25,056 bases of DNA from positions 1 through 25,056 of IMG/VR virus record IMGVR_UViG_3300032323_003010; one strand, 5' to 3'. Source of the DNA: a virus. The notes beneath the pieces are model-generated. The model ran no database searches, had not been told where the DNA came from, and worked only from the letters and a program-made list of their open reading frames with translations. Positions 1 to 17,601 of this stretch are shown piece by piece. Position 1 is the first letter of the stretch; each line of letters starts with the position of its first letter. The position numbers and the translations under genes were made by a program.

Positions 1-1
1 C

Positions 2-319
2 ACCGCCGCCAAAGTGGAGCGGGAGTTCGGACAAGTCGTGGTCACAGGCAGGCAACTGGTTGGAAAACGTCTGGCGGTGGTCTACGAGCCGACGCAGGTC
101 AAGGTGCAGGTGAAACTTCGCACGAGCTTTAGGACAAAGTCGCACCGCTTTGAGAAAAAACGGCTTCGAACGACCTCCTTTTTGACCCGGAATCGATCCT
201 TCGAAGGGTCAAACTTGCTCGTGCAAGCGGCTTGCAAGGTTCCAATTCGGGCAGAATCGGAGCTTCTTCCACGGTTCGATGCGATAGGACGAGTTGTAAC
301 AGACGGACCAATCGCGTGA
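2..319 (+). CDS. possible 3' part of a convergent plus-strand gene (uncertain)
   Basis: An open plus-strand frame enters from the left edge and stops at 317-319; a GTG at 14 could also start it. The first ~40 codons look protein-like: alternating Val/Lys/Gln residues suggest beta strands, and third positions are G/C-rich. The second half runs antisense to the Cys-rich gene at 209-475 and looks poor. A real gene may end near 130-320 with a worn 3' end, or the whole frame may be chance. I recognise no family. The only minus-strand frame open to the edge here is His/Leu/Arg-rich and looks like a shadow. Confidence 0.2.
   Translation, partial: TAAKVEREFGQVVVTGRQLVGKRLAVVYEPTQVKVQVKLRTSFRTKSHRFEKKRLRTTSFLTRNRSFEGSNLLVQAACKVPIRAESELLPRFDAIGRVVTDGPIA
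155..206 (-). terminator. weak candidate intrinsic terminator at the end of the late operon
   Basis: Just after the last minus-strand gene (stop at 209), a 7-bp stem can form between CTTCGAA (206-200) and TTCGAAG (170-164). Three bases later comes a run of six T in the minus transcript (160-155). The loop is long and the stem is short, so the hairpin is not strong. The 10-bp palindrome CCTTCGAAGG at 198-207 could compete with it. Position at the end of the gene string supports the call; the structure alone does not. Confidence 0.28.
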
Positions 320-475
320 GTTTGCCCTTTGGCAGCGCTTTACACTCGATTGGTACCATTCGCAGCGCTCGCAGATCGCCTGTTTGTCGACCACGACGCT
401 GGTTGGAATCTCACTTTTGAGCCTTTCTGACGCCTTTGGTTTGAGTCTTCCGCTGATCCGAAAGGCGTATTTCAT
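209..475 (-). CDS. small Cys-rich protein following the tail hub gene
   Basis: This encodes 88 residues. The ATG at 475 shares an ATGA overlap (472-475) with the stop of the 1217-residue tail protein, so the two are probably translationally coupled. The middle and C-terminal parts hold a spaced Cys set (ICERCEWY, RCQ, VC, then RFCP), which suggests a small zinc-binding or disulfide-stabilised fold. From memory, compact Cys-rich proteins ending in an FCP or CP(L)GKW-like motif often follow tail-tip genes in phages, but I cannot name a family. It is the last confident gene of the minus-strand operon. Function is unknown; a late tail assembly factor or a small zinc protein are both possible. Confidence 0.7.
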   Translation of the reverse strand: MKYAFRISGRLKPKASERLKSEIPTSVVVDKQAICERCEWYQSSVKRCQRANSRDWSVCYNSSYRIEPWKKLRFCPNWNLASRLHEQV

Positions 476-3400
476 ACCAGATTGACCGCGATGATCATCG
501 CATCGGCTTCAATTGGCGTCACAGTGACGACTCCTGAGGCGTTTACGACGCAGTAAATGAGGTCTCCTGAGTCGAATACTCGACCCACTCCAATGGCGCT
601 CGACGGAGGCAACGGAGGCGTCAAACGCTCGCTCTGTGGCAGGAGCTTGCACTCCAGCGTGTACTCGCTTTGGGCCGGGAACTTGATAACCTCGCCGCCG
701 CCACCGCTCCAGAAGTCCGCGATGGCGTTGCAAGGCTCTCCATTGGTCGGGGTTGTGCTCTGGGCAACCTGGTAGGAAAGCAGGCGTTCCCGGACACCCA
801 AAAGCAGGCCGTTCGTCTCGATCATGTCCTGCCATTCGACCGGGATTGCCTCCAGGTAATCGGGGTGCAAAAGCGACCACTTAAATTGCTCATCAACGCG
901 CCCGTGAACCAGTCTCCAATCGCCGCTCCCGTCGCATGCGAAATCGTCGATCGCCATGGTGTATTGAGCGCTGCTCAAAACGGCATCCGCGTAGCTGCCC
1001 AATGAAGGCGTTGGAGGCAACACAGGATCGAATTTATTGAAGGCTCCTGGAATGACCTGGCCCGTCGAACATCCATGCTCTGTTCCGTCGGCTTCATAGA
1101 GCTTTTTGACCTCCACGGTTTCACTCACACCAAACCGAGTTTGGAACACGATCGGAAGCATCAGACGGACGTCCGTTAGCAGGTTGAAAAAGGCGGCAAA
1201 TTGGTTGAAGACTTCAGCGCTGGGAAAGGTGTTCGGAAGTGGCCCATGGAACAGCGGTTTGTCTGGCCTGGTTTCTTCCTCTGGCCGGTACTCTGTCGCC
1301 GTACTTTGGACGCATCCAAACGACCGACCTCCGAAGGCCTGGACGCAGGCTGATTCGAACGTGAAATCGAGCACGGCATACACCCCGGTTTCACAGCCGT
1401 ATTGCTCCGTCGAAATTCGGTCGACGAAGCCCTCGCAAATCGCCCGCGCGTAAAGTTCGATAAGGCCGAAGACCCAGCTATCCATTGGGGTCTTTTTAGG
1501 CGAGTAGTCGACGAGTCCGTTGTAATACGGTTTTGGGACCAATCGGGTGAGGCCAATTCGTGGGTAACAGGAGCCGAAAGGGACGTCCAAACTGAACGCC
1601 ACATTGCTGTTGTGTGCCGCGTTGCCGTATTGTGTTCCAGGACCGACGCAATTGCCCCCAACGAACTGGTTGATGAGGTACTCTCGTATTCCGTTTTCTG
1701 CGGTCCGTCCGGACTCGATTTCGGCTTGGATTGTGGCGAGGCTCCACGTGGTGAAATCGCGATCGATTGACGAGGGTGCATCCGACCCATGGTGAAGCCG
1801 TCCTGAAAGGGTGATTTTAACGCGTTCTTCGCCATCCTCGGTGATCGATTCCACGCTTTCAATCACCAGGGGCAATTCACCGATAGGACACGACCGCAGC
1901 TTGCGACGCCTGGCCTCTTCACATGTGGTGTCCAGATCGGCGCACGGAAGGGCGTTGATCCCTTCTGCGTATCGATACGAAGGGAAGGATTCTGGGGCAG
2001 TCCATTCCTTGATCCCGTAGTGGAAATGGCGGGTCAGAGTCGCGGGCCGAATGCTGGGGTGCATCCATGTGCAGCGATCCGTGAACATGGACACGTAATC
2101 GGTGAATGAATCGACCTTCCAGAGGCTGGTGTCCAACGTCTGGTATGGCAGGAGCGAAAAGACGTCCAAGACCCATTCATTGGACCATCCTCCAGGCAGA
2201 GCATCCGTGAGAATTCCATTGGCTTCATACGGCAACCCAGCATCCGTCGAAGACCACTCGAAAACGCCCTCCACAGCCGTCCACTTGGAGCCCTCGGAAT
2301 ACTTGTTCCCGTTATAGATTATCGAGCCACCTTTTGCCACGTACTGTCGGCCTTCTTGCAGGCTTCCAGACTGGATGTATTCCCTAGCGGGCGCGATGGC
2401 ATCGAAGACATCCGCCTGGGAGATCCCATTCCACAACCGTCGGAAGTACAGGATCGACTTTCCCCCAGTCACTTCGTAGCCGACCAGGCTGTTCCTGGGT
2501 AGCTGCCGGGAACACTGGTTTCCGTAGCGGCGCGCCGCCTCAAATACCGCGTTTGTGTTGATCTCCGCGAAGGATCCCGGCAAGGCAATGTGCAGCCGTC
2601 GATTGATGATGCATCCGGAGGCGAAATAGTCCTGGCTGATCTCCGCTGCCTGATCCTCATCCTGGCCGTCGCCATCAGTGCCGTTTTCCAGCCCCATCCG
2701 CGCACCGGCCAGGCGCAAGACAAGCGCCAAATCCCAGAGGGCCGGTTTGTACGTCCAGAGTTCGGTTGCCTCGCAGACGATGCCATGGGCCGAAGTCGAT
2801 GTCTGAAGCCGCACTTCCCCGCGAATAATGAACCGCAGCTCGGCGAATGCCTGTGCCGTTTCCAGGGTGACAATTCGTGATGGTGTTTCGGTGTCCAAAG
2901 TGACCGAACCGATCACTGACAGCCCGTCCAGAATATCCACTGTCGCGGTGCCAACCAGACCTTGGGAATGGACCAGAACAGAAGCACACAGAAAGCCTGA
3001 TGCCGTGCTGTGCGTTGTTCCTGTGGCGTTGCTCCTTGGAATGACCGTTTCGCTAGCGAACGACGTGGCTCCCGTTAACTGCCATTGGGGATATTCCGCC
3101 GTGACGGTATCGCCTGAGGATATGCCGCGCTGCGGTGCCAAGTGATATTGGCTGGTGAGAAACCCATGGATGTCAAATGCCTGAGACATCCAGCGCTTTT
3201 CACCACTCAATTCTTCCAGCCTTTGGGTGGGTGTCCCGCGAAACTGACTGGCGAAGAAATTGAGGTATCGATTGGGTAGGTTTCCCCAGCTCTTTCGAAG
3301 CCGATTCCCAAACGTGTAGGGGCCTTCGATATAGTCAGTCCACTTGAGCACCGTGACGGTGCCGTTGAACTGATAAATGACATAGGCCTGGTTGGGGTAG

Positions 3401-4749: not shown

Positions 4750-5588
4750 ATTGGCGCTCCGTACAACCATGTGTTGAATTCATCGGAGTGATCCCAGGTT
4801 TGTGTGACCTGCCACCGATTTTTCTCGATCACCGCGATCTGGGCGGCGGATTGGAGGAAGAACCCAGCCGGAACGACGTTCTTGAATTCATTGGGCATGG
4901 TCGGATCGGAAATCAATGTGGCACGAGACCATACCTTGTTGTTCGTGGCATCGTTGTTGATGAGGTTTGCCGGTGGGCCGATCTGAATCCTTCGAATCTG
5001 GAACACATCGATTCGGTAGGCTTCGGTTCCTGATGCAAAGGCATCCAGCATGCTTCGAATGTCGGACAACATATTGGCCGTAACACCGGATTGCTGCATG
5101 TAGGTGCCAGTTTTGTAGGCAGTGTACTCGGCAAGAGTTAATTCACCCCTCCAAAACGATTCTGTCTTGGCCCTAAATTCGGCCCTCTTGGATGCCGCTG
5201 AAGTAAGGACGCTGCCTTGTGTGGTGTCGGTGAAGACTGCAAGCGCCAACTTCATTTCGGGTCGATTCCATAATGTTTTTTCACCCAGAACACTCTCTCG
5301 CGACCACGTTGTGACGACGGATTCCGCTCCGAGTGGTTCGGTTCCGGAGTCGACTGCACTCTTGGCAGCATAAGACGCTGTCAAAATGAAATAGTTCCCT
5401 GAATCGTGCTCAATGGTCCCTTCCTCAATGCTGCCTTCATTGACCAATAGATCCAAAGCTAGTCCACATTCCGCTTCGGTTCCCTTCCATCGGAAATCCA
5501 CGGTGTACCCAAGACCTGAACGAAACCCTCGACGACGTTCAAGGAACTGAACTCCTGTGTTTTTTACGATACGAACGCGAGCGCTCAT
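4746..5588 (-). CDS. putative distal tail protein (280 aa)
   Basis: The ATG at 5588 overlaps the tape measure stop by one base (TAATG), so the two are tightly coupled. The gene directly after the tape measure in siphophages usually encodes the distal tail or a tail-tip protein, which is the basis of the call. The protein is mixed alpha/beta with no transmembrane segment. It ends in an aromatic stretch (WQVTQTWDHSDEFNTWLYG). It is shorter than most two-domain baseplate hub proteins. I do not recognise the family from sequence alone, so the role is positional inference. Confidence 0.65.
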   Translation of the reverse strand: MSARVRIVKNTGVQFLERRRGFRSGLGYTVDFRWKGTEAECGLALDLLVNEGSIEEGTIEHDSGNYFILTASYAAKSAVDSGTEPLGAESVVTTWSRESVLGEKTLWNRPEMKLALAVFTDTTQGSVLTSAASKRAEFRAKTESFWRGELTLAEYTAYKTGTYMQQSGVTANMLSDIRSMLDAFASGTEAYRIDVFQIRRIQIGPPANLINNDATNNKVWSRATLISDPTMPNEFKNVVPAGFFLQSAAQIAVIEKNRWQVTQTWDHSDEFNTWLYGAPI

Positions 5589-6904
5589 TAAAATATCCTG
5601 TTGATGTTCGTGGCTGTTTGTTTCGTCGCTTCTCGGATCTGCTTCAGCTCAATCACTTGCTGCCTCATCAAATCCACTCGCTGGACGTCGATTCCGCCGC
5701 GATACAAACCGATTCGCGCCAGGGAGTCAGCCTGTGGTATCGACATGGCAAGGCTCTGTTGTCCCTTTAGCTTTGCCTCCTCCGCCGCCGCTTTTGCGTC
5801 AGACTGCCTTTTGATTCTGGCCAGTTTTCTAGCTGTGGCTTCAGGGCTTAAAGGCAAGGCATTTGAGTTGGCGAAAAATGTCGAGTAAGCACTCCCGACC
5901 ATGGATCCAGCAAGCTTCAGAGCTTGGAATCGAGGATCGGAACTGTAGGCATTCATTAGCTTACTCGCTATCGCGAATACCGTATCTGTCATCCCCACCA
6001 TGATGAGCTTCCACTTCATCATTGCGTCCTCAAACTTGCGATTGACCTCATCGAGGTTTCTCAGCTTCTCGTCGAGTGCCTTCTCATCGCCCAATGGTGA
6101 ACTCCCATAAGATCCCAAGACGGCCATCATGCGACCTGGGTTCCGTCCGAACATGGCGCCCATGTTGTTTCGATCCTTGGTCTGCATGCCATTCGGTCCA
6201 AGTGCTTGCCTGATACCCAAAGCCAACGCGAGGTTGTCCTCGGGTCCGCGCATGCGTCCAAGCATACCGTATTTCGCGGCGATATTTTGGGCATTCTCAT
6301 CGCCACCCACCACAGAACTTCGGAATGCTGCAAATGTGCTCATACCTGCCAGCGCTGCCCCCGTCGAAACGCCAGAAGCACCCGCGGCCTTCTGGAGCTT
6401 CAACATCTGGATCCTCGTGAGATCCGCTTGTTCCGATAGATCACCCAGTTCGTCTGCGAACCTGAGTGAACTCGTGACAATGCCCGCCAATCCATGGGCC
6501 ACACCGGCAATGCTGACACCGATGCCAAGTGCACCGAGACCGCGCGCCGCCAACCCCATGATGCCTCCTCCGCCAGCTGGGCCGACACTGCGTTGACTGC
6601 TGCGATTGCGCGCCATGGACAATTCCAGGGCGCTGATCCGTGAAAGGTTGCCACTCGACCGCGCCCGGCTCAGCTGGCGCTCCAGGTTAACCTGGCGTTG
6701 CAGCAATCGATTCCGCTTCTCTTCGTCGCTCAACGCCGAGAATCGAGCCTGGCGTTCCTCGCGGGCCAATCGTTGGCGTTCACGTCCGTAGCGCGTGGTG
6801 GCGGCCTTGGCATCGTTCAGGTCCTTGACAACCTTGTCGATCTTGGCCAGTGCTTCGCGGTCATCTCCTTCGAGGACGATTCGGAATTTCAGGTCATTGG
6901 CCAT
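5588..6904 (-). CDS. tape measure protein (short, 438 aa)
   Basis: Tape measure proteins set tail length and are threaded inside the tail tube. The features fit. Residues ~35-100 are a long charged helix or coiled coil. Residues ~109-145 are a Gly/Ala-rich hydrophobic stretch (GGGGIMGLAARGLGALGIG and on). Residues ~150-180 (FADELGDLSEQADLT..QMLKLQKAAGASG) match the pattern common at the start of phage tape measures, and helices follow to the end. The ATG at 6904 overlaps the upstream gene by 11 bases. At 438 residues it is short for the family; by the usual rule of about 1.5 angstrom per residue this would give a tail of roughly 60-70 nm. The tail-tip genes follow directly. Confidence 0.85.
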   Translation of the reverse strand: MANDLKFRIVLEGDDREALAKIDKVVKDLNDAKAATTRYGRERQRLAREERQARFSALSDEEKRNRLLQRQVNLERQLSRARSSGNLSRISALELSMARNRSSQRSVGPAGGGGIMGLAARGLGALGIGVSIAGVAHGLAGIVTSSLRFADELGDLSEQADLTRIQMLKLQKAAGASGVSTGAALAGMSTFAAFRSSVVGGDENAQNIAAKYGMLGRMRGPEDNLALALGIRQALGPNGMQTKDRNNMGAMFGRNPGRMMAVLGSYGSSPLGDEKALDEKLRNLDEVNRKFEDAMMKWKLIMVGMTDTVFAIASKLMNAYSSDPRFQALKLAGSMVGSAYSTFFANSNALPLSPEATARKLARIKRQSDAKAAAEEAKLKGQQSLAMSIPQADSLARIGLYRGGIDVQRVDLMRQQVIELKQIREATKQTATNINRIF

Positions 6905-7538
6905 CGAGTGCCTCTTCCTTTTCGAACATTGACCGCATCAGTTCCGGATCCTCAGCGAGCTTTCGAGCCCACTCCATGAATTCCTCATCCTCCTTGTTCC
7001 ACAATTGAATGAGGCCTTTTTCTTCCAACAACGCCGCACGATCCCAGAGAGCGGTGGTGATCGGTGTGTTCAAGGCTTCCGCTTCCGACTTGTGGAAGTG
7101 ATGCACCAACCCGGCTTTGAGCATGGCCAGCATGGGTGTGCCACACTTTCCGCCGCCGCCGCTCTGTGGACGGAGCTTTGGACCGACGAACCCGGCTCGA
7201 ATGTGGATCCCGAGTTGATTCCAAACCTCGGCCATCTCCTCTGGTTCCATCTTCGACAATCGCTTGCCGTGATGTTTGATCCTTCGCTGCGCACTCCATG
7301 ATCCGATGCGTTGGAAGGCTTCGCTTGCAGGGCGCTCCATGACCCAAATGGCTTGAGCCATGTCGCCAATGCCAATCCGTGTTTCCGGTTGTTCGACGTC
7401 GCTCCAGATGCCGGACAACGGACTCCGCATGCGGGTCAACAACAACGCGTGGCCGACGCAGAACGGCAACAGCAGCACCCCGCCCACCGTCAAGCGGTCG
7501 GGGTGCATTGCCATGGCGTAGCCGAGGTCGTTGTTCAT
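6894..7538 (-). CDS. putative tail assembly chaperone-position protein
   Basis: This encodes 214 residues from ATG 7538. A TTG at 7550 would add four residues and overlap the previous stop as TTGA. It sits between the tail tube candidate and the tape measure, the classic place of the tail assembly chaperone (lambda G/GT type). The N-terminal ~40 residues are hydrophobic (LTVGGVLLLPFCVGHALLLTR) and may be a buried helix rather than a true membrane segment. The middle has a Gly-rich loop (PQSGGGGKCG), and the C-terminal ~60 residues are acidic and helical. I see no convincing slippery site for a frameshifted long form. Function is inferred from position. Confidence 0.7.
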   Translation of the reverse strand: MNNDLGYAMAMHPDRLTVGGVLLLPFCVGHALLLTRMRSPLSGIWSDVEQPETRIGIGDMAQAIWVMERPASEAFQRIGSWSAQRRIKHHGKRLSKMEPEEMAEVWNQLGIHIRAGFVGPKLRPQSGGGGKCGTPMLAMLKAGLVHHFHKSEAEALNTPITTALWDRAALLEEKGLIQLWNKEDEEFMEWARKLAEDPELMRSMFEKEEALDGQ

Positions 7539-7546
7539 TCGATCGA

Positions 7547-8002
7547 TCAATCGAAGTCGACTGGCGCAGTGCCGATACTGTTGGTCTCTGGATCGCTCCC
7601 GTAGCGCTGGAGATTCATGGATACCTCACCGACGTCGGAGCTTAATTCACCGCCACCTCCGACATAGTGCCAGGTGCCGTCGAATCGGTTATTGCCGAAA
7701 CCGATGAGTGTCACCACGCCCAGACGCGGTGGTAGAGTAAAGTTGGACTTGGCATTCGCCAATGTGCCACCGACTGGCGCGATCGGCACCCAACGAATGC
7801 TCAGGCTTTGAATAGGTTGATCCGCCGTCACGGCGAACACCTCGCTTTTTCCATCGCGATGGGGTGTGGCGGAAAAATCGTCCTGAAGGCTTGCGCTCAT
7901 CATTTTGCTTTTGGTGTCGTCGATCGCGACGGCACCCGTAAATGACATCGTGCCGTGCACACCCTTGACGAGGTACCGACCGATTCCTTTTTGAATTGGC
8001 AT
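7547..8002 (-). CDS. putative major tail tube protein
   Basis: This encodes 151 residues from ATG 8002, ending just before the chaperone-position gene. The composition is beta-rich (many Gly, Val, Thr and Ser) with no signal peptide. The opening (PIQKGIGRYLVKGVHGTMSF) and the pattern of short strands fit a tail tube subunit. Order also fits: tail completion, terminator, tube, chaperone, tape measure. The leader upstream is C/A-rich and lacks an SD. The call rests on order and secondary-structure impression, not on a recognised signature. Confidence 0.65.
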   Translation of the reverse strand: MPIQKGIGRYLVKGVHGTMSFTGAVAIDDTKSKMMSASLQDDFSATPHRDGKSEVFAVTADQPIQSLSIRWVPIAPVGGTLANAKSNFTLPPRLGVVTLIGFGNNRFDGTWHYVGGGGELSSDVGEVSMNLQRYGSDPETNSIGTAPVDFD

Positions 8003-8014
8003 AGTGGGGTTTGG

Positions 8015-8500
8015 TTAGGGGACTTCTGTGACGTCGTAGACGGTGTCTGCGGCGAAAGTGAGGCGATCTCCGAGCCAACCTTGCGGGGTCTTCCCGCTCT
8101 GCCATGTGGTTCGCTGGAATGGAGACCATCCGAGAGCTGAGGACCAATTGCGCAGTAGGATGTGCACAATCTCACCAAGTCGCATGGCCCGAATCTGGTT
8201 GCCAGTAGACGCCCGATTGATTCGGGCGTGCTCGACGCATTCGATCGATATCTGCATGGATAGGATGAATGGGCGCCTTTGATCCTGCGGTACGATCTCC
8301 GGCGTGTGGACGATGATGCATCCACCGTTTGATCCAACGGGACCGAGCCCCTTCTTGATTTCAGCCTCGATGTCGCCGAAATCCTCGGGGATGACGAGGA
8401 TCCTGGGTGGGCCAAACAATTGTGGATCCTCCTGAAGGCGCAAGACGATCTCGTTCTGAAGGTCCTTCAACAGTCCGTGCTCTTGCAGGGCTTCGCTCAT
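8015..8500 (-). CDS. putative tail terminator protein
   Basis: This encodes 161 residues. ATG 8500 overlaps the previous stop as ATGA (8497-8500), and an SD (GGAGG, 8510-8506) sits five bases upstream, which fixes the start. Layout fits the small tail terminator fold: an N-terminal helix, beta strands (CIIVHTPEI, FILSMQISIECVEHARINR), a helix (IRAMRLGEIVHILLRNW) and final strands (LTFAADTVYDV). These proteins cap the tail tube and join it to the head. Position before the tube gene agrees. No signature motif is certain. Confidence 0.65.
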   Translation of the reverse strand: MSEALQEHGLLKDLQNEIVLRLQEDPQLFGPPRILVIPEDFGDIEAEIKKGLGPVGSNGGCIIVHTPEIVPQDQRRPFILSMQISIECVEHARINRASTGNQIRAMRLGEIVHILLRNWSSALGWSPFQRTTWQSGKTPQGWLGDRLTFAADTVYDVTEVP

Positions 8501-9069
8501 CGGGTCCTCCGTTGGATGTAGGTCGAAATGGCGGCGGTGACTGCCTCCTGAATTTCGTCGAGTCTTGGGAGCACGTCGGGGTTTCCTTGCTGAATGACGC
8601 TGCTCTTAAGGACGTACAACAATTCCAGACCTTTGGCAGTGTTACGTGCCAGGTAGGCCTTGTTGGACGTCTTGCTGTCCCCACCATCCTTCCCAATCTT
8701 CAGCACAAACAGATCCTCAAACTCCAAGGCCGATTTGCCGTAGGAGATTCGGCTGATCGGAATGGTGAGCATCTTGCGACCGCCCGTCGGCTTGATAGGC
8801 CCGCCAAAATATCGTTGCGCCACTTCGTTTGGCATCACGATTGCCGCTTCGGTCATGCTCGATTCCGCGCGCGTCGCACCTCGCATGCGTTTCCAAAAGG
8901 TGGCGGGTCGTCCGAACTTGTTCCGGTTCGACATGGCCATTTTGACGAAGTGCTTCTGCACGACCTGAGTGCCCGCCGTGGCGATCACGTTGTTGACCGC
9001 CGATCGATCGCGAAGCGTGCGAAGGATCTCATTGAGTGCCGGTGTGGCGCTGTCGATGACGTAGGCCAT
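8497..9069 (-). CDS. putative tail completion / virion morphogenesis protein
   Basis: This encodes 190 residues from ATG 9069. A clear SD, AGGAGG at 9084-9079, is nine bases upstream inside the end of the previous gene; it is one of few in the window. The protein is basic with a helical N terminus, a central stretch (RYFGGPIKPTGGRKMLTIPI) and a C-terminal helix. The pattern RPxTFWKRM...YFGGxIKP...LTIPI resembles the Mu gpG/lambda Z/HK97 gp10 class of tail completion proteins, in which a head-proximal tail subunit binds the neck. Order before the tail terminator agrees. Confidence 0.65.
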   Translation of the reverse strand: MAYVIDSATPALNEILRTLRDRSAVNNVIATAGTQVVQKHFVKMAMSNRNKFGRPATFWKRMRGATRAESSMTEAAIVMPNEVAQRYFGGPIKPTGGRKMLTIPISRISYGKSALEFEDLFVLKIGKDGGDSKTSNKAYLARNTAKGLELLYVLKSSVIQQGNPDVLPRLDEIQEAVTAAISTYIQRRTR

Positions 9070-9071
9070 AC

Positions 9072-9989
9072 TCAGAGCCCTCCTTTCAATCGCAAGACGT
9101 CGCCGTCCAATTCCAGCGTAGGGTCGGCTTCCAGGGCGGCACGCAGAGCGGGTTCGAAGTTCGCAGCACTGGCGGTGATGTCCTCATTAATCGACCGTTG
9201 ATTAGGTCGAGGTGCCGGTGCGTTCGGCTGGATCACGCCGAGCTGCTCAGCCTCTTCACGCGAGACATCTTGGACATCCATTCCGCTGTTGAATGCGAAG
9301 GGTGGGTATGGATTGCCGAGGGCGTCGTCGAATATGTCGGGATCCCCAATCCGCTCCCAGATCACGGAGTTTTTCAGAGCGATCATTCGACCCTGGTAAA
9401 TCTCTCCACCAACTCGGCGCCAACGATCCGGCCATGCGTCGCCTGGTACCGGCAATCGGACGCCACCAGGCCCGATTCGGAATCCACGCTCAACGTTGAC
9501 GGGAGAGACTCGGATCAATTCCCAACACGGCCACAGGTCCAACAGATCCTCGTTTTGTGTGGCCACGTATCGACCGTAGCCGTGGGCCAGTTCTTCCTGG
9601 GTTTTTAGGATTAGATTCAGACGAGTATCGCTCTGTGGATCCTTCAGACCGCCGACATCATCGGGTTCAGCAGCTTGGACACCCAGTCGCTGGAAGGTTT
9701 TTCGTAGTCTCAGTCTGGCTTCTGGCACGCTCAGTTTGAGCGCGCGTTCACCGGCGTCACGTGCGGCGATGTCCTCAGCCGACACGCCACGGATCAATTC
9801 CGTTACGGTGTCGTTGATGGCCTGCAAGGCGCGTGCATTCTCGATCTTGGCTGAGAACGACGCCCATCGTTTAAGATCAGCACCCAACCGCTGTAGGTCC
9901 CGCGTCCCGAGCGACGTCGGCAGAGCCTTTCGGACATTCAAGCGACGAATGCCGTCAGCCCATGTGCGTGGTTGAGTGAGTGTGGGCAT
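9072..9989 (-). CDS. putative minor head (gp7/gpF-like) protein
   Basis: This encodes 305 residues from ATG 9989. The N-terminal half is helical. Residues ~120-140 (DTRLNLILKTQEELAHGYGR) resemble the helix in SPP1 gp7/Mu gpF-type minor head proteins that normally reads like RTNxxxAxxxGR. A later motif, NPYPPFAFNSGMDVQDVSRE, is a sequence I associate with phage head morphogenesis proteins. The C-terminal tail is extended (Pro/Asn-rich, then helical). In Mu and SPP1 this gene follows the portal; here it is about 9 kb further along. It would be an injected or portal-associated minor protein. Family assignment is from memory of motifs and is moderate only. Confidence 0.65.
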   Translation of the reverse strand: MPTLTQPRTWADGIRRLNVRKALPTSLGTRDLQRLGADLKRWASFSAKIENARALQAINDTVTELIRGVSAEDIAARDAGERALKLSVPEARLRLRKTFQRLGVQAAEPDDVGGLKDPQSDTRLNLILKTQEELAHGYGRYVATQNEDLLDLWPCWELIRVSPVNVERGFRIGPGGVRLPVPGDAWPDRWRRVGGEIYQGRMIALKNSVIWERIGDPDIFDDALGNPYPPFAFNSGMDVQDVSREEAEQLGVIQPNAPAPRPNQRSINEDITASAANFEPALRAALEADPTLELDGDVLRLKGGL

Positions 9990-9993
9990 TGGA

Positions 9994-10386
9994 TTAGGGC
10001 TCGATCTGGCGCCAATAAAAGATGTTGGTGGTGATCAATTCCCACTTGGTAACATTCGTTGCTCCTCTGAGGTTCGTCGGTGGGTCAACTCGATTGGTGC
10101 TGATCACGTATTCATTGGACGGTCGGCTGAGGATGCCGTTGGTTCCGATTGCCAAAACCTCGACGAAAACTTCGATGTTGTCCGGGATGTTGAGAATTCC
10201 GACCTTGTTGGTGTCGCCAACGAATTGGTTCACCAGCTTGTTGCTGGAACTGGGGCCGTAGCGAACCAGGTATCCGTTGACCGTGTTGGTCGAACGGGTC
10301 CACTCACCCCACCATTCGCCACCGATAAGTGTGCCGCAGAACAGGAGTATGATCAGAGATCGCATGGAAAGAATCGTTTTTCGCAT
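9994..10386 (-). CDS. small secreted Fn3-like protein
   Basis: From the ATG at 10386 this encodes 130 residues; GTG 10422 and ATG 10365 are alternatives. The N terminus is a Sec signal peptide: basic residues, then LIILLFCGTLIGG, with likely cleavage after it. The mature part has the strand order of a fibronectin type III domain: NGYLVRYGPSSSNK, a strand ending in GILNIPDNIEVFVEVLAIG, then NGILSRPSNEYVIST. The gene lies four bases before the minor-head gene and overlaps the LuxR-type gene by 34 bases. An exported protein inside a morphogenesis operon is odd. It could be a surface adhesin or receptor mask, or a virion decoration whose hydrophobic N terminus is used differently. Confidence 0.65.
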   Translation of the reverse strand: MRKTILSMRSLIILLFCGTLIGGEWWGEWTRSTNTVNGYLVRYGPSSSNKLVNQFVGDTNKVGILNIPDNIEVFVEVLAIGTNGILSRPSNEYVISTNRVDPPTNLRGATNVTKWELITTNIFYWRQIEP

Positions 10387-10589
10387 TGTGGTTTTGGTGA
10401 CCTCAGCATGATTGCAACGCACTGCGCGGCGTTGCTTGCACCAAGTCTTTTGTACGCGTTCCTCTGGTGAGTATTTGCCGTGCTTGTCGCGATCCCAAGC
10501 TTGTCGGCAATCAGCTTCGCGCTCAGCCCATCAGCTGTCAGGCTGATGATCTGCGTTTGCCGCGGAGTCAATTGGCCGGTTTGTGGCAT
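10353..10589 (-). CDS. stand-alone LuxR-type (GerE) HTH protein
   Basis: This encodes 78 residues, of which 7-62 form one complete LuxR/GerE helix-turn-helix: LTPRQTQIISLTADGLSAK, then IADKLGIATSTANTHQRNAY and KRLG. Residues ~36-50 would be the recognition helix (Thr/Asn-rich, followed by the usual ..RN.YKKLG-type end). There is no receiver or ligand domain, so it resembles the short single-domain regulators of this superfamily. The C terminus is a short basic tail with two Cys. The ATG at 10589 is three bases after the previous stop, so it is co-expressed with structural genes. It may bind DNA to time or damp late transcription or act on the host; the target is unknown. Confidence 0.8.
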   Translation of the reverse strand: MPQTGQLTPRQTQIISLTADGLSAKLIADKLGIATSTANTHQRNAYKRLGASNAAQCVAIMLRSPKPQCEKRFFPCDL

Positions 10590-10592
10590 GGG

Positions 10593-10964
10593 TCAGGGGT
10601 TTTGTTGCTCCCGTGCAATCAGAGCATCGATCAACGCCGTGAACAGCTCGGCTTGCTCCGATGGCTCCAGTTTTCCAGATGCCGAAAGTTTCTCTCGGAG
10701 AGCTTTTAGCGTGGCGATGAATCCTTCGAACTGCGATTGCTTGGCTTGCTCGGCAGTGTTCTTGGCCGCCTCTGCGGCCCTAGTCAAAGCAGCTACAGTT
10801 TCATAATGTGTCTCAAAACGGCGCTTCCACTCTTCTTCTGTAACTTCTATCCACCCATCTGGAATTGTGTCCTTGTCCTCGACTCTCCTTCGTTCAGCAG
10901 GGTATTCGCCAGGAAACCCGAGCGGATTTGGTGTGGCCGAATAAGGTAAAACTATATTTTTCAT
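10593..10964 (-). CDS. fibre-adjacent helical protein, possible fibre chaperone
   Basis: This encodes 123 residues. ATG 10964 overlaps the fibre stop as ATGA (10961-10964), showing coupling to the giant fibre gene. The N-terminal part includes DTIPDGWIEVTEEEWKRRFE, a pattern seen in small proteins encoded next to phage tail fibres. The remainder is a long Ala/Gln/Lys/Glu helix (~50-105), probably a coiled coil. Tail fibre assembly proteins are often encoded right after their fibre, so a chaperone role is a fair inference, but a small coiled structural protein is equally possible. Confidence 0.65.
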   Translation of the reverse strand: MKNIVLPYSATPNPLGFPGEYPAERRRVEDKDTIPDGWIEVTEEEWKRRFETHYETVAALTRAAEAAKNTAEQAKQSQFEGFIATLKALREKLSASGKLEPSEQAELFTALIDALIAREQQNP

Positions 10965-13900
10965 CGGGCAGTGGTGAATTTCTTGTAGACCTGAATGTAG
11001 TCCGAATAGAAATCCCGCTGAGTCGTTCCAATACTCTTCTGGATACCGAAGCCAAAACTCGTTGCACGACTGGCACCCGTTGGAATGGTATTGGTCTCTG
11101 TTCGAACCAACGTGCCGTTAATGTAGAATTTTACCTCGTTACCGGCTGCATTGACCACGATCGTCCAGTCTGTGTAGTTGGTAGTGGCGGCAACTCCCGT
11201 GTCGGTCGCGGTAATGGAATTGTTGGACTCGGTGCAAGCCTCCCAATTTCCAGATGAAACGTTGTCTGTGCATCGAAAGTAAGCGCCATCTGTACCGCCA
11301 ATTTCACCATCCAAGAACCCAACATGAACTATGAATCTCTCCGAACCTGTCGACAGGGTGGGTATTTTTCCACGAAACTGACCAACTACTTTTCCCTCAC
11401 CAAATATCAAGTTCGCTGAATTGGGGGTTAATGCCCTAGTTCCGGTTGATGACGTGCTGGTGTGCACACCCATCAATCCATTGCCTTGAGCCTCAGAACT
11501 AATGTTGCCAGAGTTTCCGCCTGTTCCCCAGCCAGCATAACCAACCAAACCATGATACACCCAATCCTCGGTGAATAAGTAGTGTGTCCTAGCGTTCACC
11601 CACTCAACGCCGTCTGGACCGTTGTACAGCATGGAGGGGAAGAAACCCGTCGGGGCAGCAAATCTTGAGGCGGTGTCTGAACCGGTACCAACAACCAAAT
11701 CTCCAGCCGCATCCCAAATCGTATCGGTTGCAACACTTCCACTCCCACCGACCACCGCCGTTCCGTCGGCCTTGGTGTACGATGCGACCAGCCAATTTCC
11801 TGAACCTAGCGAATAGGCTCTAAACCGGTCATTGACCGCCGTCGTCATATTGGCGGCACCTGGAAGAATTAACGACGTCCCGTTGTGAGTCAACGTGAGC
11901 ACTCCAGTGAATCGGCCTTCGCGAACAGTTCCAGCCGCCACCGTGCCGAAGCCGGTTATCGTCGTCGTGCCTGTGATGCTGACCTTATCGCTCGCTACGG
12001 CGCCTAGGTCGGTCGTTGTCGCGCTGGCGACGGTGGCTTCAGCGACACCAGTATTGAACGGACTCACCCATCCCCACTGGCCAGATCCATCGGTTTTTAA
12101 CAGTTGATTAGCCGTGCCAGTGGTCGTCGGTAGCTTTATTGTGTGCGTTCCCGCAGCAGCAGGAACTGTCATTGTGACGAATCCGGAAGTGGATCCCTCA
12201 AAATCTAGCAAGTCTGTCTTTGGATTCGACAGTGATGCGTTGTCGATGAACGAGCTGTCGCTTTTGACGTAGGAGCCGATTCCAGTCACACCAACACCCT
12301 GGATTGCTGATCCACTAGTCCACTCTGCGGCTTGTCCAGATGACGGTGTGCCTGTGATGCTGACGCCGCTTCCTCCTGGTGCTCCATAAGCGACCCAGCC
12401 TGTGTTTCCTGTTCCAGACTCTTTGACGTAGAAAGTTGTCCCGGATCCTCCATCCGTTCGCCGCCATGTTCCTCCAATATTCTCGGTGACTACGCCCTCA
12501 GGATTGCCTGCTCCAAACCGGTCTTGTGTGGATGTGCCGTATTGAATCCCACTGGCTGTACGCAAAAAACCACCAACAGTCACAAGTGCCGTATTGTCAT
12601 TCAGAGCCAAAGTCTGAGGACTGGTACCATCAGCCAAAGACGAATTTATGGAGTTTCCGTTCAGCGTCAGTCTTCGATCAAGTGTCTGAGCCACTTGCAG
12701 CAGAATCTGGGAATCAGTTGCTGATACGCCTCGCAATAAATGACCCGAAGTGCCATTAGGGCTAAACGCCACAATGCGCCCATCAGTAGTCACATAGAAT
12801 CGCTCACTGCCATCGTCCGTCGTACTGATCAAACGATGAGATCCAGATCCAAGCGCCGTCGTAGTAGCTTCAATTGAAAGCCCGCTGCTTCCAGCCGTTC
12901 CAGTCTGGTTCACCGTGTACTGAAACCTCGCTGGAAACTGGGTTCCGCTAGATCCTGTCAACGTGCTGGCAAGAGTAGCACCTCCGTTCAGCGCCGCACT
13001 GCCTGTCACCGTCAATGCTTGCGCCACTGTTGCAGCTCCGGAAATGGCAACATTATTTCCAGACGTGCCTAGTGATAGATTAGCCCCAGCACCAGTGCTG
13101 TTTACTTTTGCGCTGATTGAGTTTCCGTTGATCGTCAATGACCTGTCTAGCGCCGTGTCTCCTGTTTGAATCGTGACACCTGAACTAGCCACACCGTCGA
13201 CTCCAAACCTATGCAGATACCCACCGTTCGTTGCGGTCGGAGTGACGATCAACCTGTCAGAGAATGTAGCCTGACCTGTTACTCCTAGAGTCTGTGCGAC
13301 TGTCGCCGATCCAGCTACAGCCACAGTTTGACCGGATGTTCCTAGCGACAAATTGGCAGGAGATGCTGTGCTATTTACCTGCACAGATATGCTGTTCCCG
13401 TTGATCGTCATCCCTCGGTCAAGAGATGTATCACTGGCAATTATTTGGACACCAGAAGCAGCCACACTTCCAGAGCCAAATCGATGACTAGTACCTCCTG
13501 CTCCAGCCGTGGGCAGCATCAACAAACGCCCATTTCCAGTCACATTCCCAACAAGTGAACTGGTTCCGGAAACGCTCAACGACGTAAAAACACCTGCACC
13601 ACTAAACGAACCTCCACTTATTCCCTGGCCTGAAGTGATCGAAGGGAGATCTTGAGCAAAATTCTCTGCGAATGCCGAGGCTATAGCCGCATGTCCTGTA
13701 TCGTTCGGATGAACAGCATCACCACCTTGGTGTGATAATGGGGCATATTTCGACGATGACTCTGCAATGGCAACCCTCAGTCGACTCACCTTTGCCGCGT
13801 TAATTGAAGAAGCGATTTGGGAGTTGAATGCCGAATGAAGCGCATCAGTTCCACCGCTGGTCCATGGGTATTGCCTTGGGATAGTTCCAACAAAAATATT

Positions 13901-15451
13901 GGGTCCTCTTTTTGTAGACCTTGGAAATCCGTTTCCAGAACACCAGAGCACGTAAACCGGATTGCTTGATGCGGTGACGACTACAGTGTGCGAGGAAAAT
14001 CCAAGATCTGTTACTCGAACCAACTGCGGGCAGAAGTCGATCATTCCGGTCCCATAAGGTCCATTGTGATCCGGTATGCTGGCGTCACTTCCATTTATGT
14101 ACTCACGGTTACCGTAAGCCACGCTCGCAGTTGAGAAGTTCGTGATAGTAACACCATCCACAGAGATCTGGAGACTGCCTCCAAAGTTTGTGCCCCAGCC
14201 TATGTACCCAAGGTAAACATCAGACCCAATTACATTGCTGAACGTGAGCGTTCCGCTGCTGCTGTATGCTCCGATCGATCCCATTCCGTTTGACCATGGT
14301 ATGGGAGTCCATGTTCCAGTTGATGCGTCTGGGCTCTGTGCGGTTCGCTTTGAGTCAGAAGGTATTGCCAACCAGTGCAACAAATGATCCAGCCCTTTAC
14401 GAAACATCGACGCACTGGTAGTGCCCGTTCGGATGTCGTTGAATCCAATTAGAACGCTCCAATTCTGATTGTCGTTTATCGTCGTCGGAGATTTAAAAAT
14501 GTAACTGGTTGGGCCGGTAGCATTGGTGACTGTCCATCCGCTAAATACCGACCAGTTTGCATCTGAAATCGTGAACGAACCGTTGGCGAGGTTTGTTGCG
14601 CTTAGACCTATGCTCGCTGCAAATGTGCTTGGCCAAGTGTTTGTATAAGAAGTGGCGCCTGCTCCGTACGTGAAAGAATCCCCTATTGTGAAGAGGTCCG
14701 TTGCGCTCGTTTCAAATTTCCTGCTAGTTGGAAGATCTCCATTGATTTCCCATTTTGTTCCCGCTTCAGACACGATCACTCCACCCTTATTCCCGTCGCT
14801 GAGTGCTCCACCTGCTCCAGGTGCACCATACGGAATCCATCCAGTGTTCCCGGCACCGCTTTCCTTGATGTAAAATGACGTGCTTGCACCACCATCTGTC
14901 CGATGGTATTCGGATCCAACTGGAGCAGTCAGTACACCCTCAGGCGAACCAGAGCCCTTGTAGGTGAACAGCTCACTACCAAGTACCGCCGTGTCATTCG
15001 TCGTCCAGACCACCGGCGCCGCCTGGGTCGTGTACGTCCTCACCACGCCCTCGATCGTGTCATTGGCCGTCGCGTAGCTATTGGTCCGAGGACTAATCGC
15101 ACTGTTCCAGGCCAGGCTGTTCGTGATCCGCTCCAATAGCGTGTAGGTCGCCGCATTCGTCGGGACATCGATCACGAAGGCTTTGTCAGCGCCTACTGTC
15201 ACTCGATAATTGCCGGGGGATAGCTCCACGCTGAACACACCGTTGGTTGCCGGTACAACCCTGAAATCACCACCGGTGATCAGATTAGGTGTGTAGGGCA
15301 GTGGCGTCGACATGGGCCGGAACAGGATCGTTCCGGTGTACGGCGTGTTGCTGTACGTAAGGAAGATCGGACCCGTGATGACTGCCGGGGTTGCACGCCA
15401 GGTGCAAACCAGCGCCATCGTCAGAAAAAGAAATGCTCGGAATAATTTCAT
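10961..15451 (-). CDS. secreted multidomain tail fibre/spike with SGNH esterase domain (1496 aa)
   Basis: Residues 1-23 form a Sec signal-like segment (MKLFRAFLFLTMALV...). Residues ~24-100 form a small beta domain like a prealbumin/collar fold. Residues ~169-213 and ~983-1029 are two copies of a known fibre motif (PEGVxTxxxGxxxxRTDGG...KESGxGNTGW). Residues ~250-602 are an SGNH/GDSL hydrolase: GDSFTYGAG at 257-265 (Ser259), GFND at 336-339 (Asn338) and DAVHPNDTGH at 578-587 (Asp578, His581). About 140 residues (370-510) of beta-rich sequence, jelly-roll-like, interrupt this domain. Three ~75-85 residue repeats fill ~641-963. The C-terminal ~200 residues look like a concanavalin/LamG-like lectin domain. 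Esterases in tail fibres remove acyl groups from surface polysaccharides; the substrate is unknown. The gene is coupled to the next (ATGA), and its body is AT-richer than its neighbours. Confidence 0.85.
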   Translation of the reverse strand: MKLFRAFLFLTMALVCTWRATPAVITGPIFLTYSNTPYTGTILFRPMSTPLPYTPNLITGGDFRVVPATNGVFSVELSPGNYRVTVGADKAFVIDVPTNAATYTLLERITNSLAWNSAISPRTNSYATANDTIEGVVRTYTTQAAPVVWTTNDTAVLGSELFTYKGSGSPEGVLTAPVGSEYHRTDGGASTSFYIKESGAGNTGWIPYGAPGAGGALSDGNKGGVIVSEAGTKWEINGDLPTSRKFETSATDLFTIGDSFTYGAGATSYTNTWPSTFAASIGLSATNLANGSFTISDANWSVFSGWTVTNATGPTSYIFKSPTTINDNQNWSVLIGFNDIRTGTTSASMFRKGLDHLLHWLAIPSDSKRTAQSPDASTGTWTPIPWSNGMGSIGAYSSSGTLTFSNVIGSDVYLGYIGWGTNFGGSLQISVDGVTITNFSTASVAYGNREYINGSDASIPDHNGPYGTGMIDFCPQLVRVTDLGFSSHTVVVTASSNPVYVLWCSGNGFPRSTKRGPNIFVGTIPRQYPWTSGGTDALHSAFNSQIASSINAAKVSRLRVAIAESSSKYAPLSHQGGDAVHPNDTGHAAIASAFAENFAQDLPSITSGQGISGGSFSGAGVFTSLSVSGTSSLVGNVTGNGRLLMLPTAGAGGTSHRFGSGSVAASGVQIIASDTSLDRGMTINGNSISVQVNSTASPANLSLGTSGQTVAVAGSATVAQTLGVTGQATFSDRLIVTPTATNGGYLHRFGVDGVASSGVTIQTGDTALDRSLTINGNSISAKVNSTGAGANLSLGTSGNNVAISGAATVAQALTVTGSAALNGGATLASTLTGSSGTQFPARFQYTVNQTGTAGSSGLSIEATTTALGSGSHRLISTTDDGSERFYVTTDGRIVAFSPNGTSGHLLRGVSATDSQILLQVAQTLDRRLTLNGNSINSSLADGTSPQTLALNDNTALVTVGGFLRTASGIQYGTSTQDRFGAGNPEGVVTENIGGTWRRTDGGSGTTFYVKESGTGNTGWVAYGAPGGSGVSITGTPSSGQAAEWTSGSAIQGVGVTGIGSYVKSDSSFIDNASLSNPKTDLLDFEGSTSGFVTMTVPAAAGTHTIKLPTTTGTANQLLKTDGSGQWGWVSPFNTGVAEATVASATTTDLGAVASDKVSITGTTTITGFGTVAAGTVREGRFTGVLTLTHNGTSLILPGAANMTTAVNDRFRAYSLGSGNWLVASYTKADGTAVVGGSGSVATDTIWDAAGDLVVGTGSDTASRFAAPTGFFPSMLYNGPDGVEWVNARTHYLFTEDWVYHGLVGYAGWGTGGNSGNISSEAQGNGLMGVHTSTSSTGTRALTPNSANLIFGEGKVVGQFRGKIPTLSTGSERFIVHVGFLDGEIGGTDGAYFRCTDNVSSGNWEACTESNNSITATDTGVAATTNYTDWTIVVNAAGNEVKFYINGTLVRTETNTIPTGASRATSFGFGIQKSIGTTQRDFYSDYIQVYKKFTTAR
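12563..13531 (-). repeat. three diverged in-gene repeats in the fibre stalk
   Basis: The fibre contains three related units at residues ~641-724, ~733-816 and ~891-963. Each has a His/Leu-Arg pair near the start (SHRFG, LHRFG, LLRGV), then a TxLDRxxTxNGNSI core, then a strand-rich end (the first two carry ANLSLGTSG). The first two are close copies; the third is worn. They probably form trimeric beta stalk modules between the esterase and the C-terminal lectin-like domain. Unit number could vary by recombination. Confidence 0.7.
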
Positions 15452-15455
15452 GGGC

Positions 15456-15914
15456 TCAAAGACCTGCCATGGATTCGCGGGTGTAGACTCGGGTGGATGA
15501 TCTCACCAACTGCACCGCGTTGGCGGCGGTCTGCACGTCTGGTGTGGTATCGGGGCTGTCAGGGACTTCGACCGGCATGTCCCCTCGTGCCACATCGCTC
15601 AAGCGTTGCCTGGCTTGCGTCACTTCGTTCAGCTGGGCTTCGGTCATCTCGACGCCGAGCCCTTGGGCCATGTACTGGCAAATGATCCAACATGCGGCGC
15701 TACGCAGGCTTTGCGGGATCTTCGTCGTATCCGAATCCAGCACGTTACTCGTCTTGCCTTTCGCCGCCACGCGCACCTCGGCGATGGTGTCGGCGTGAAC
15801 CTGGGTGAATCGATCCAACTGCGCATCGCCCAACGCAGCCGAGTCAATGGCTTCGACCAGTGCCGAAACCACGTACATCTTAAGATCTTCCCGCGATACA
15901 GTTACCCAGGCCAT
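15456..15914 (-). CDS. head-tail connector protein (DUF1320/gp6-like position)
   Basis: This encodes 152 residues from ATG 15914. It is helical over ~5-115 (EDLKMYVVSALVEAIDS, then IPQSLRSAACWIICQYMAQG), followed by a Pro/Asp-rich extended C-terminal tail. This matches the layout of small head-tail connectors (Mu gp36/DUF1320 or HK97 gp6 type), where helices ring below the portal. It follows the major capsid gene, as such connectors do, and is four bases before the fibre gene. Identity is based on layout and order, not on a decisive motif. Confidence 0.65.
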   Translation of the reverse strand: MAWVTVSREDLKMYVVSALVEAIDSAALGDAQLDRFTQVHADTIAEVRVAAKGKTSNVLDSDTTKIPQSLRSAACWIICQYMAQGLGVEMTEAQLNEVTQARQRLSDVARGDMPVEVPDSPDTTPDVQTAANAVQLVRSSTRVYTRESMAGL

Positions 15915-17091: not shown

Positions 17092-17601
17092 TTACTTCGT
17101 CAGCCCGTATCCACCGGGCGATACCTCGAAGGTGTCGGTGTTTCCGTTGCCAACCGCTTCGAGTGCGCGCCCAACGATGTAGTAATTGCCTGCACCTGCG
17201 GCGACTGTCTTGACGGCACCCGCAGCCGCAGGCACCAACAGATCACCATAGGCGATCGCGGCAGATCCGTCTGAGATCATGCGTACCGTGCCTTTCGTGC
17301 AGTTCAACATCTTGACGGACACGGCATCGGTGGTGTTGGCGGTTTCGTCGTCGGTCACACCGAAGGGTCGATCGGCTGCACCAGCGACCGCCACGGATGT
17401 GGCTGCGGAACCTTGGATGACGAGTCGATAACGACCCAGGGCTGCATCCGTCGTTTTGGTCAACACGCCGTCCTCATGGGTGCCATGAGCCAGGCCGTTG
17501 ACCAGATCCAGTCGGCGTCGGCTGGAACGATGGACAGTTTTGTAAGCGGCCCACAGCGCGATAACGGCGAGGCCGATGCTCAACATCAGATTGTGAAACA
17601 T
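17092..17601 (-). CDS. capsid cement-like (DUF2190-type) protein with N-terminal membrane segment
   Basis: This encodes 169 residues. Residues ~35-169 form a small beta domain with the pattern of capsid cement/decoration proteins: RPFGVTDDE, then DGSAAIAYGDLLVPAAAGAVK, YYIVGRALEAVG and a final TFEVSPGG. Such proteins bind the outside of the mature capsid and stabilise it. Residues 5-20 (LMLSIGLAVIALWAAY) are a membrane-type helix followed by basic HRSSRRR, which is not usual. No start codon lies between this segment and the domain, so it cannot be explained by a wrong start choice. The gene is just upstream of the major capsid gene. Confidence 0.7.
   Translation of the reverse strand: MFHNLMLSIGLAVIALWAAYKTVHRSSRRRLDLVNGLAHGTHEDGVLTKTTDAALGRYRLVIQGSAATSVAVAGAADRPFGVTDDETANTTDAVSVKMLNCTKGTVRMISDGSAAIAYGDLLVPAAAGAVKTVAAGAGNYYIVGRALEAVGNGNTDTFEVSPGGYGLTK

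Follow-up and report, generated by a model that had tools for sequence, protein, structure and literature searches.

A fibre-like phage protein with an SGNH esterase domain, an inserted beta-sandwich and a predicted export signal

What is a fibre-like protein with a predicted export signal and an interrupted esterase doing in the structural operon of a phage? The 25,056-nucleotide stretch of viral DNA analysed here (hereafter the window; IMG/VR record IMGVR_UViG_3300032323_003010) encodes such a protein at positions 10961–15451. The open reading frame and its translation give 1,496 amino acids (aa) from an ATG start on the minus strand, as for all other features of this protein described below, and several of its modules are common to annotated phage tail fibres. 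An earlier note on this DNA had read the gene as an exported virion fibre carrying an SGNH esterase of depolymerase type, split by a beta-rich domain.

An SGNH domain interrupted by a beta-sandwich

The full catalytic set lies where the earlier note had placed it. Block I, GDSFTYGAG (residues 257–265, window 14657–14683), contains the predicted nucleophile Ser259; block III, GFND (residues 336–339, 14435–14446), contains the predicted oxyanion residue Asn338; and block V, DAVHPNDTGH (residues 578–587, 13691–13720), begins with Asp578 and includes His581; in an alignment of the family with solved SGNH enzymes the two block V regions correspond. A probable block II, ATNLANG (residues 285–291, 14579–14599), with Gly291 as the candidate residue, comes from the alignment alone; the register there is shifted by one residue and pLDDT is low. 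In a 12-row alignment whose other rows are 20–33% identical to the window's, no substitution is seen at the catalytic Ser, Asn, Asp and His, or at the block I Gly, the Asp that follows Asn in block III, and the Asn and Gly-His of block V. Block I reads GNS or GHS in some relatives.

The full-length fibre scores under the Pfam cut-off for SGNH families, and residues 240–605 alone score above it: 34.9 bits with PF13472 (cut-off 32.9, E = 2.9e-8) and 27.7 bits with PF00657 (cut-off 23.6). The SGNH match is real and well above chance. Searched separately, the N-terminal half with blocks I–III (residues 247–365, 14357–14713) corresponds to PF13472 positions 2–94 and the C-terminal half (residues 516–605, 13637–13906) to positions 106–178; because the halves match consecutive parts of one profile, the insert is placed between blocks III and V.

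Residues 240–605 were modelled with AlphaFold2 as a single, monomeric domain. With the 12-row alignment the model reached a pLDDT of 74.8 and a pTM of 0.80 (from the single sequence, pLDDT was 33), and it is weak at residues 296–317 and 445–471. Against solved structures, VIA-align gave a best Z of 15.6 (2.7 Å over 178 residues, 4rw0) and Z of about 14–15 to the carbohydrate acetylesterases 5hoe, 2wao and 7toh; the SGNH alignment spans model residues 10–362, covering both halves and skipping the insert. The Pfam halves in order and the match of the model to SGNH structures bear out an SGNH fold with its catalytic blocks in canonical order; the earlier note was prepared to give up its reading if that fold were missing, and the monomer model has it.

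The insert, residues 372–515 (13907–14338), is about 144–145 aa long, in good agreement with the beta-rich, carbohydrate-binding-like insertion of roughly 140 residues proposed earlier. In the model it forms a CBM6/CBM35-like beta-sandwich: over about 150 columns, Foldseek matched it to the CBM6 structure 1gmm (TMt 0.67, rmsd 3.5) and also to 5fui, 7ay3 and 2w1w, CBM36 and CBM35 modules being among these. The sole sequence-level signal of CBM type is a weak match of the CE2_N profile, the N-terminal jelly roll of CE2, to three of the 12 inserts in the alignment. The insert has invariant residues of its own across the 12 rows (Trp381, Gly409, Asp432 and His488 in fibre numbering), which indicates a conserved part of the module rather than a random splice. 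The family profile also found two copies of this type of beta-domain in a subtilisin-like protein of Actinomycetota (L047), one within the protease region and one downstream; for one of the two, the structure of a relative called MiXBM has been solved. Given the Foldseek matches to CBMs, the weak CE2_N matches and the copies in the subtilisin-like protein, the insert is best read, on its modelled fold, as a mobile sandwich of carbohydrate-binding type.

Relatives of the module and known split esterases

At least 14 further phage or viral proteins share this arrangement of SGNH domain and insert. A tblastn search with the domain found gp79 of Tunturiibacter phage Tunturi_2 (25% identity over the insert and C-terminal half), which led in turn to Sinorhizobium phage PBC5 gp16 and the IMG/VR contigs L016, L025 and L026; seven further viral contigs carry the module (L028, L029, L030, L032, L035, L036 and L037), L028 being the closest relative at about 32%. 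A family profile built from 12 IMG/VR and window sequences matched the whole module in Arthrobacter phage BruhMoment gp38 (118 bits), Tunturi_1 gp78 (114 bits) and Gordonia phage Beenie gp27 (73 bits), and weakly Persistence gp31. Whole-module searches of BFVD with the model likewise returned a minor tail protein of Gordonia phage Beenie (TMq 0.67) and a hydrolase of Arthrobacter phage Persistence (TMq 0.61). The named phage proteins have the same insert in the same place as the window fibre, but they differ from it in their low identity and surrounding modules, and only some have export-type signals. In Tunturi 1 and 2, which are Acidobacteriota phages, and in PBC5, the module forms a short protein of exported type lacking fibre modules. 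PHROG searches with PBC5 gp16 and Tunturi gp79 returned no match, so the module appears to be mostly missed by annotation. In a 16-row tree the window protein clusters with L028, L029, L036 and Tunturi (support 92/92), and PBC5 lies elsewhere.

No useful match came from scanning viral sequences with a three-row alignment or with peptides taken from the domain, from the major head protein or from Tunturi gp79, and plasmid searches for the module gave none. One genome scan turned up an ordinary SGNH protein in Kocuria that has no insert, and the insert is likewise missing from the SGNH domain of Staphylococcus phage 80alpha gp59; matches in Rhodobacter were dropped as antisense to an annotated gene, and two in Actinomycetota as flagellar-cap-like proteins. 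On L016, a truncated second SGNH copy (4905–5222), close to PBC5 gp16 in sequence and with a twin-arginine-like start (MDFSSIDRRTLITGLLATGALSC), lies just upstream of the intact copy. The L036 protein (1–3309; 1,103 aa) has hydrophobic ends, and along with the SGNH-plus-insert module it contains glycine-rich domains and Pro-Thr linkers.

SGNH domains in phage receptor-binding proteins are not new. The fibres Aristophanes gp41 (PMC8471582) and Possum gp66 (PMC9569702) remove acetyl groups and leave the chain uncut, and SGNH deacetylation without chain cleavage is likewise described for G7C gp63.1 and receptor-binding proteins of Klebsiella prophages (PMC13123978). The window fibre shares with these an SGNH domain in a receptor-binding-type protein, and those that have been tested deacetylate glycan. 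The solved phage fibres that the model matched, 9d84 and 9lna, unlike the window fibre, have an SGNH core of about 210 residues and no inserted domain.

Among bacterial enzymes, neisserial Ape (4k3u, 4k7j) resembles the window fibre in that a CBM35-like sandwich interrupts its SGNH esterase, but its insert (104–221) falls between Ser and Gly236, that is, between blocks I and II (PMC6174289), whereas here the sandwich lies between III and V. In CE20 a beta-sandwich within a discontinuous SGNH domain sits beside the active site (PMC12313940); that family, however, has a GH2-like insert, a water-mediated triad and a Gln-based (HQGE-type) oxyanion hole, where the window fibre has GFND and DxxH (PMC12313940, PMC9487903). 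The jelly roll is N-terminal in CE2 and C-terminal in CE17 (RiCE17) (PMC9487903); both pair an SGNH domain with a related jelly roll, yet neither has it inserted, as it is here.

Foldseek with the two-domain whole matched the CE17 esterase 6hfz and the torovirus hemagglutinin-esterase 3i26. The latter aligns over both domains of the model (TM 0.41), a likeness of architecture that does not imply homology of the inserts. The lectin of hemagglutinin-esterases is likewise situated between the Asn and DxxH blocks. These proteins of torovirus and coronavirus (HE) and influenza C (HEF) hold a glycan-binding domain within an SGNH esterase (PMC9487903) and differ from the phage fibre in belonging to eukaryotic viruses and in their sialoside specificity.

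The fibre gene and its N-terminus

The fibre gene is flanked by tail genes and by a head-tail gene (15456–15914, weakly Mu gp36-like), in an operon that also holds terminase, portal, protease, major head and tape-measure genes. Its shared fibre modules and its place in this structural operon both put it in the tail fibre or receptor-binding class. The third-position GC content (GC3) is 0.50 in the fibre gene, 0.47 in its SGNH part and 0.48 in the next gene, a 123-aa minus-strand reading frame (10593–10964) that may encode a fibre chaperone. Other genes of the structural operon mostly lie at 0.60–0.72; since the low values stand apart from these, base composition suggests that the fibre and its downstream gene (10593–15451) form an exchanged cassette.

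The regions around the esterase are modular. For the beta-rich N-terminal domain (residues 24–110, 15122–15382), the best match in the phage collection was not significant (E = 3). The module PEGVxTAPVGxxxxRTDGGxxTxFYxKESGxGNTGW, related to phage tail fibres by tblastn, occurs at residues 164–212 (14816–14962), and a second copy, PEGVxT...KESGTGNTGW, at residues 977–1024 (12380–12523; phrog_21909, E = 2.7e-9). Residues 1085–1135 (12047–12199) are common to IMG/VR contigs L002–L011, residues 1177–1235 (11747–11923) share 67% identity over 51 aa with a fibre beside the SGNH gene of L032, and the C-terminal beta-rich region (residues 1285–1496, 10964–11599) is laminin-G- or jelly-roll-like as read by eye. 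In seven sampled phage tail proteins and in the second fibre of L028 the KESGTGNTGW-type module is the extreme C-terminus. Here it is internal twice, so that the protein resembles fibres fused in tandem.

The N-terminus is less usual for a fibre. Residues 1–23 (15383–15451), MKLFRAFLFLTMALVCTWRATPA followed by VI, fit a simple, home-made rule for Sec signals (charge, hydrophobic core and AxA; the hydrophobic 10-mer has a mean KD of 2.67). A typical signal was present in none of 26 control tail or fibre proteins (Loki gp20 and Beenie gp26 have hydrophobic N-terminal stretches of other kinds), which upholds the earlier judgement that such a signal is unusual. Sec-like signals recur in L028 and PBC5 gp16, a lipobox (LLTG followed by C) in Tunturi gp79 and a lipoprotein signal in gp78, and L036 has a hydrophobic N-terminus that is perhaps a signal. 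In this small set of relatives, not randomly drawn, most have no signal; within the window's clade (window, L028, L029, L036 and Tunturi), four of five have a signal or an N-terminal hydrophobic segment. On L028, positions 5857–11736 hold four consecutive genes with Sec-like signals, encoding the SGNH protein, a fibre ending in KESGTGNTGW, a 146-aa protein and a beta-helix protein. The literature searched, with incomplete coverage, yielded no description of a signal-bearing virion fibre, and we know of no signal peptide on an SGNH deacetylase tail fibre.

A Sec signal argues against assembly into virions in the cytoplasm. The two elements of the proposed exported virion fibre, a signal-like N-terminus and fibre modules, both stand, and their combination is a contradiction to be explained rather than an established fact; the protein may belong to the virion, the cell surface or the periplasm, and all three sites are considered below.

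Possible roles of the protein

The likeliest explanation, to which we give a probability of about 0.55, is a modular fibre for host recognition that includes its own polysaccharide O-acetylesterase. During binding, His581 and Asp578 would activate the nucleophile Ser259, Asn338 would line the oxyanion hole, and O-acetyl groups (or similar acyl groups) would be removed from a glycan of the host surface. The CBM6/35-like sandwich between blocks III and V, presumably set beside the active site, would hold or select that glycan, a role likeliest by analogy to Ape, CE20 and the hemagglutinin-esterases, and the flanking modules would attach the protein and extend it. O-deacetylation at host binding is likewise favoured by analogy, because SGNH fibres of other phages deacetylate and leave the chain intact; on the same grounds the earlier depolymerase-type label is not supported in that wording (PMC8471582, PMC9569702, PMC13123978). 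An esterase alone is an ordinary phage tool; the unusual parts are the splice site and the repeated export signals, and it is the recurrence of a glycan-binding-type insert together with an export-type signal in fibre-type phage proteins that draws attention. Which capsule or O-antigen types a phage infects is decided in part by phage deacetylases, and a conserved, widespread module of esterase and lectin-like domain could be of use in predicting glycan specificity. Whether phages secrete fibre-type enzymes that edit the host surface from outside is a question that the export signals raise.

If the signal is functional, the protein may instead be an exported enzyme outside the virion, stripping acetyl groups from the surface glycan of the infected or lysogenic cell itself, and we hold this possible, though less likely. 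It draws on the signals of the window protein, L028 (with its four signal-bearing genes in a row) and PBC5 gp16, on the lipobox signals of Tunturi gp79 and gp78, on the four of five clade members with a signal or a hydrophobic N-terminal segment, and on the position of Tunturi gp79 among small non-structural genes outside any tail operon. Against this, fibre modules are numerous in the window protein and its gene belongs to the structural operon; most relatives have no signal, and several adjoin tail genes. If true, the effect of such an enzyme would resemble that of a receptor-destroying enzyme: it would free progeny or limit superinfection (itself a conjecture). That a group of phages exports fibre-type proteins, the insert-bearing esterase among them, to act outside the infected cell as a bacterial-virus counterpart of the receptor-destroying hemagglutinin-esterases seems to us rather unlikely; if it does, L028 would export a cassette of four such proteins, including the beta-helix protein. 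It may also be that the start codon is misplaced, or that the hydrophobic N-terminus is a structural tail anchor and no signal. The ribosome-binding site upstream of the ATG is weak, and one of the window's head proteins likewise has a hydrophobic N-terminal extension, but the ATG stands four bases past the preceding stop, as in coupled genes, and the pattern of charge, hydrophobic core and AxA recurs in independent relatives, which makes this reading improbable.

Ape suggests a periplasmic role, as a peptidoglycan O-acetylesterase that readies acetylated murein for the phage lysozyme. Ape is itself split, with a CBM35-like domain set into its SGNH esterase (PMC6174289, PMC9487903), and it matches the model (4k3u, Z 12.8); endolysin or holin-like genes come immediately after the SGNH gene in L016, L030 and L032. 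The insertion sites differ, however, the intact copies adjoining lysis genes have no signal, and fibre modules would be pointless in a periplasmic lysis aid, so that we consider this role very improbable. A catalytically dead SGNH domain serving as a binding platform would fit the shifted register of block II, the longer and poorly modelled stretch at about residues 296–317, and the GNS or GHS that replaces GDS in some relatives; against it, Ser, Asn, Asp and His are retained across very divergent relatives, and we give it scarcely any credence. The host-recognition fibre with a built-in O-acetylesterase thus remains our preferred reading.

Other proteins of the window have features of their own. 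The N-terminal extension of the head protein at 17092–17601 (phrog_673) is hydrophobic and then Arg-rich; the extension may be genuine, or the start may have been placed at the wrong codon. A 78-aa protein of the structural operon (10353–10589) reads like a LuxR/GerE helix-turn-helix, and near the fibre gene a small protein (9994–10422), fibronectin-III-like by eye, has a signal-like N-terminus of its own (MRKTILSMRSLIILLFCGTLIGG).
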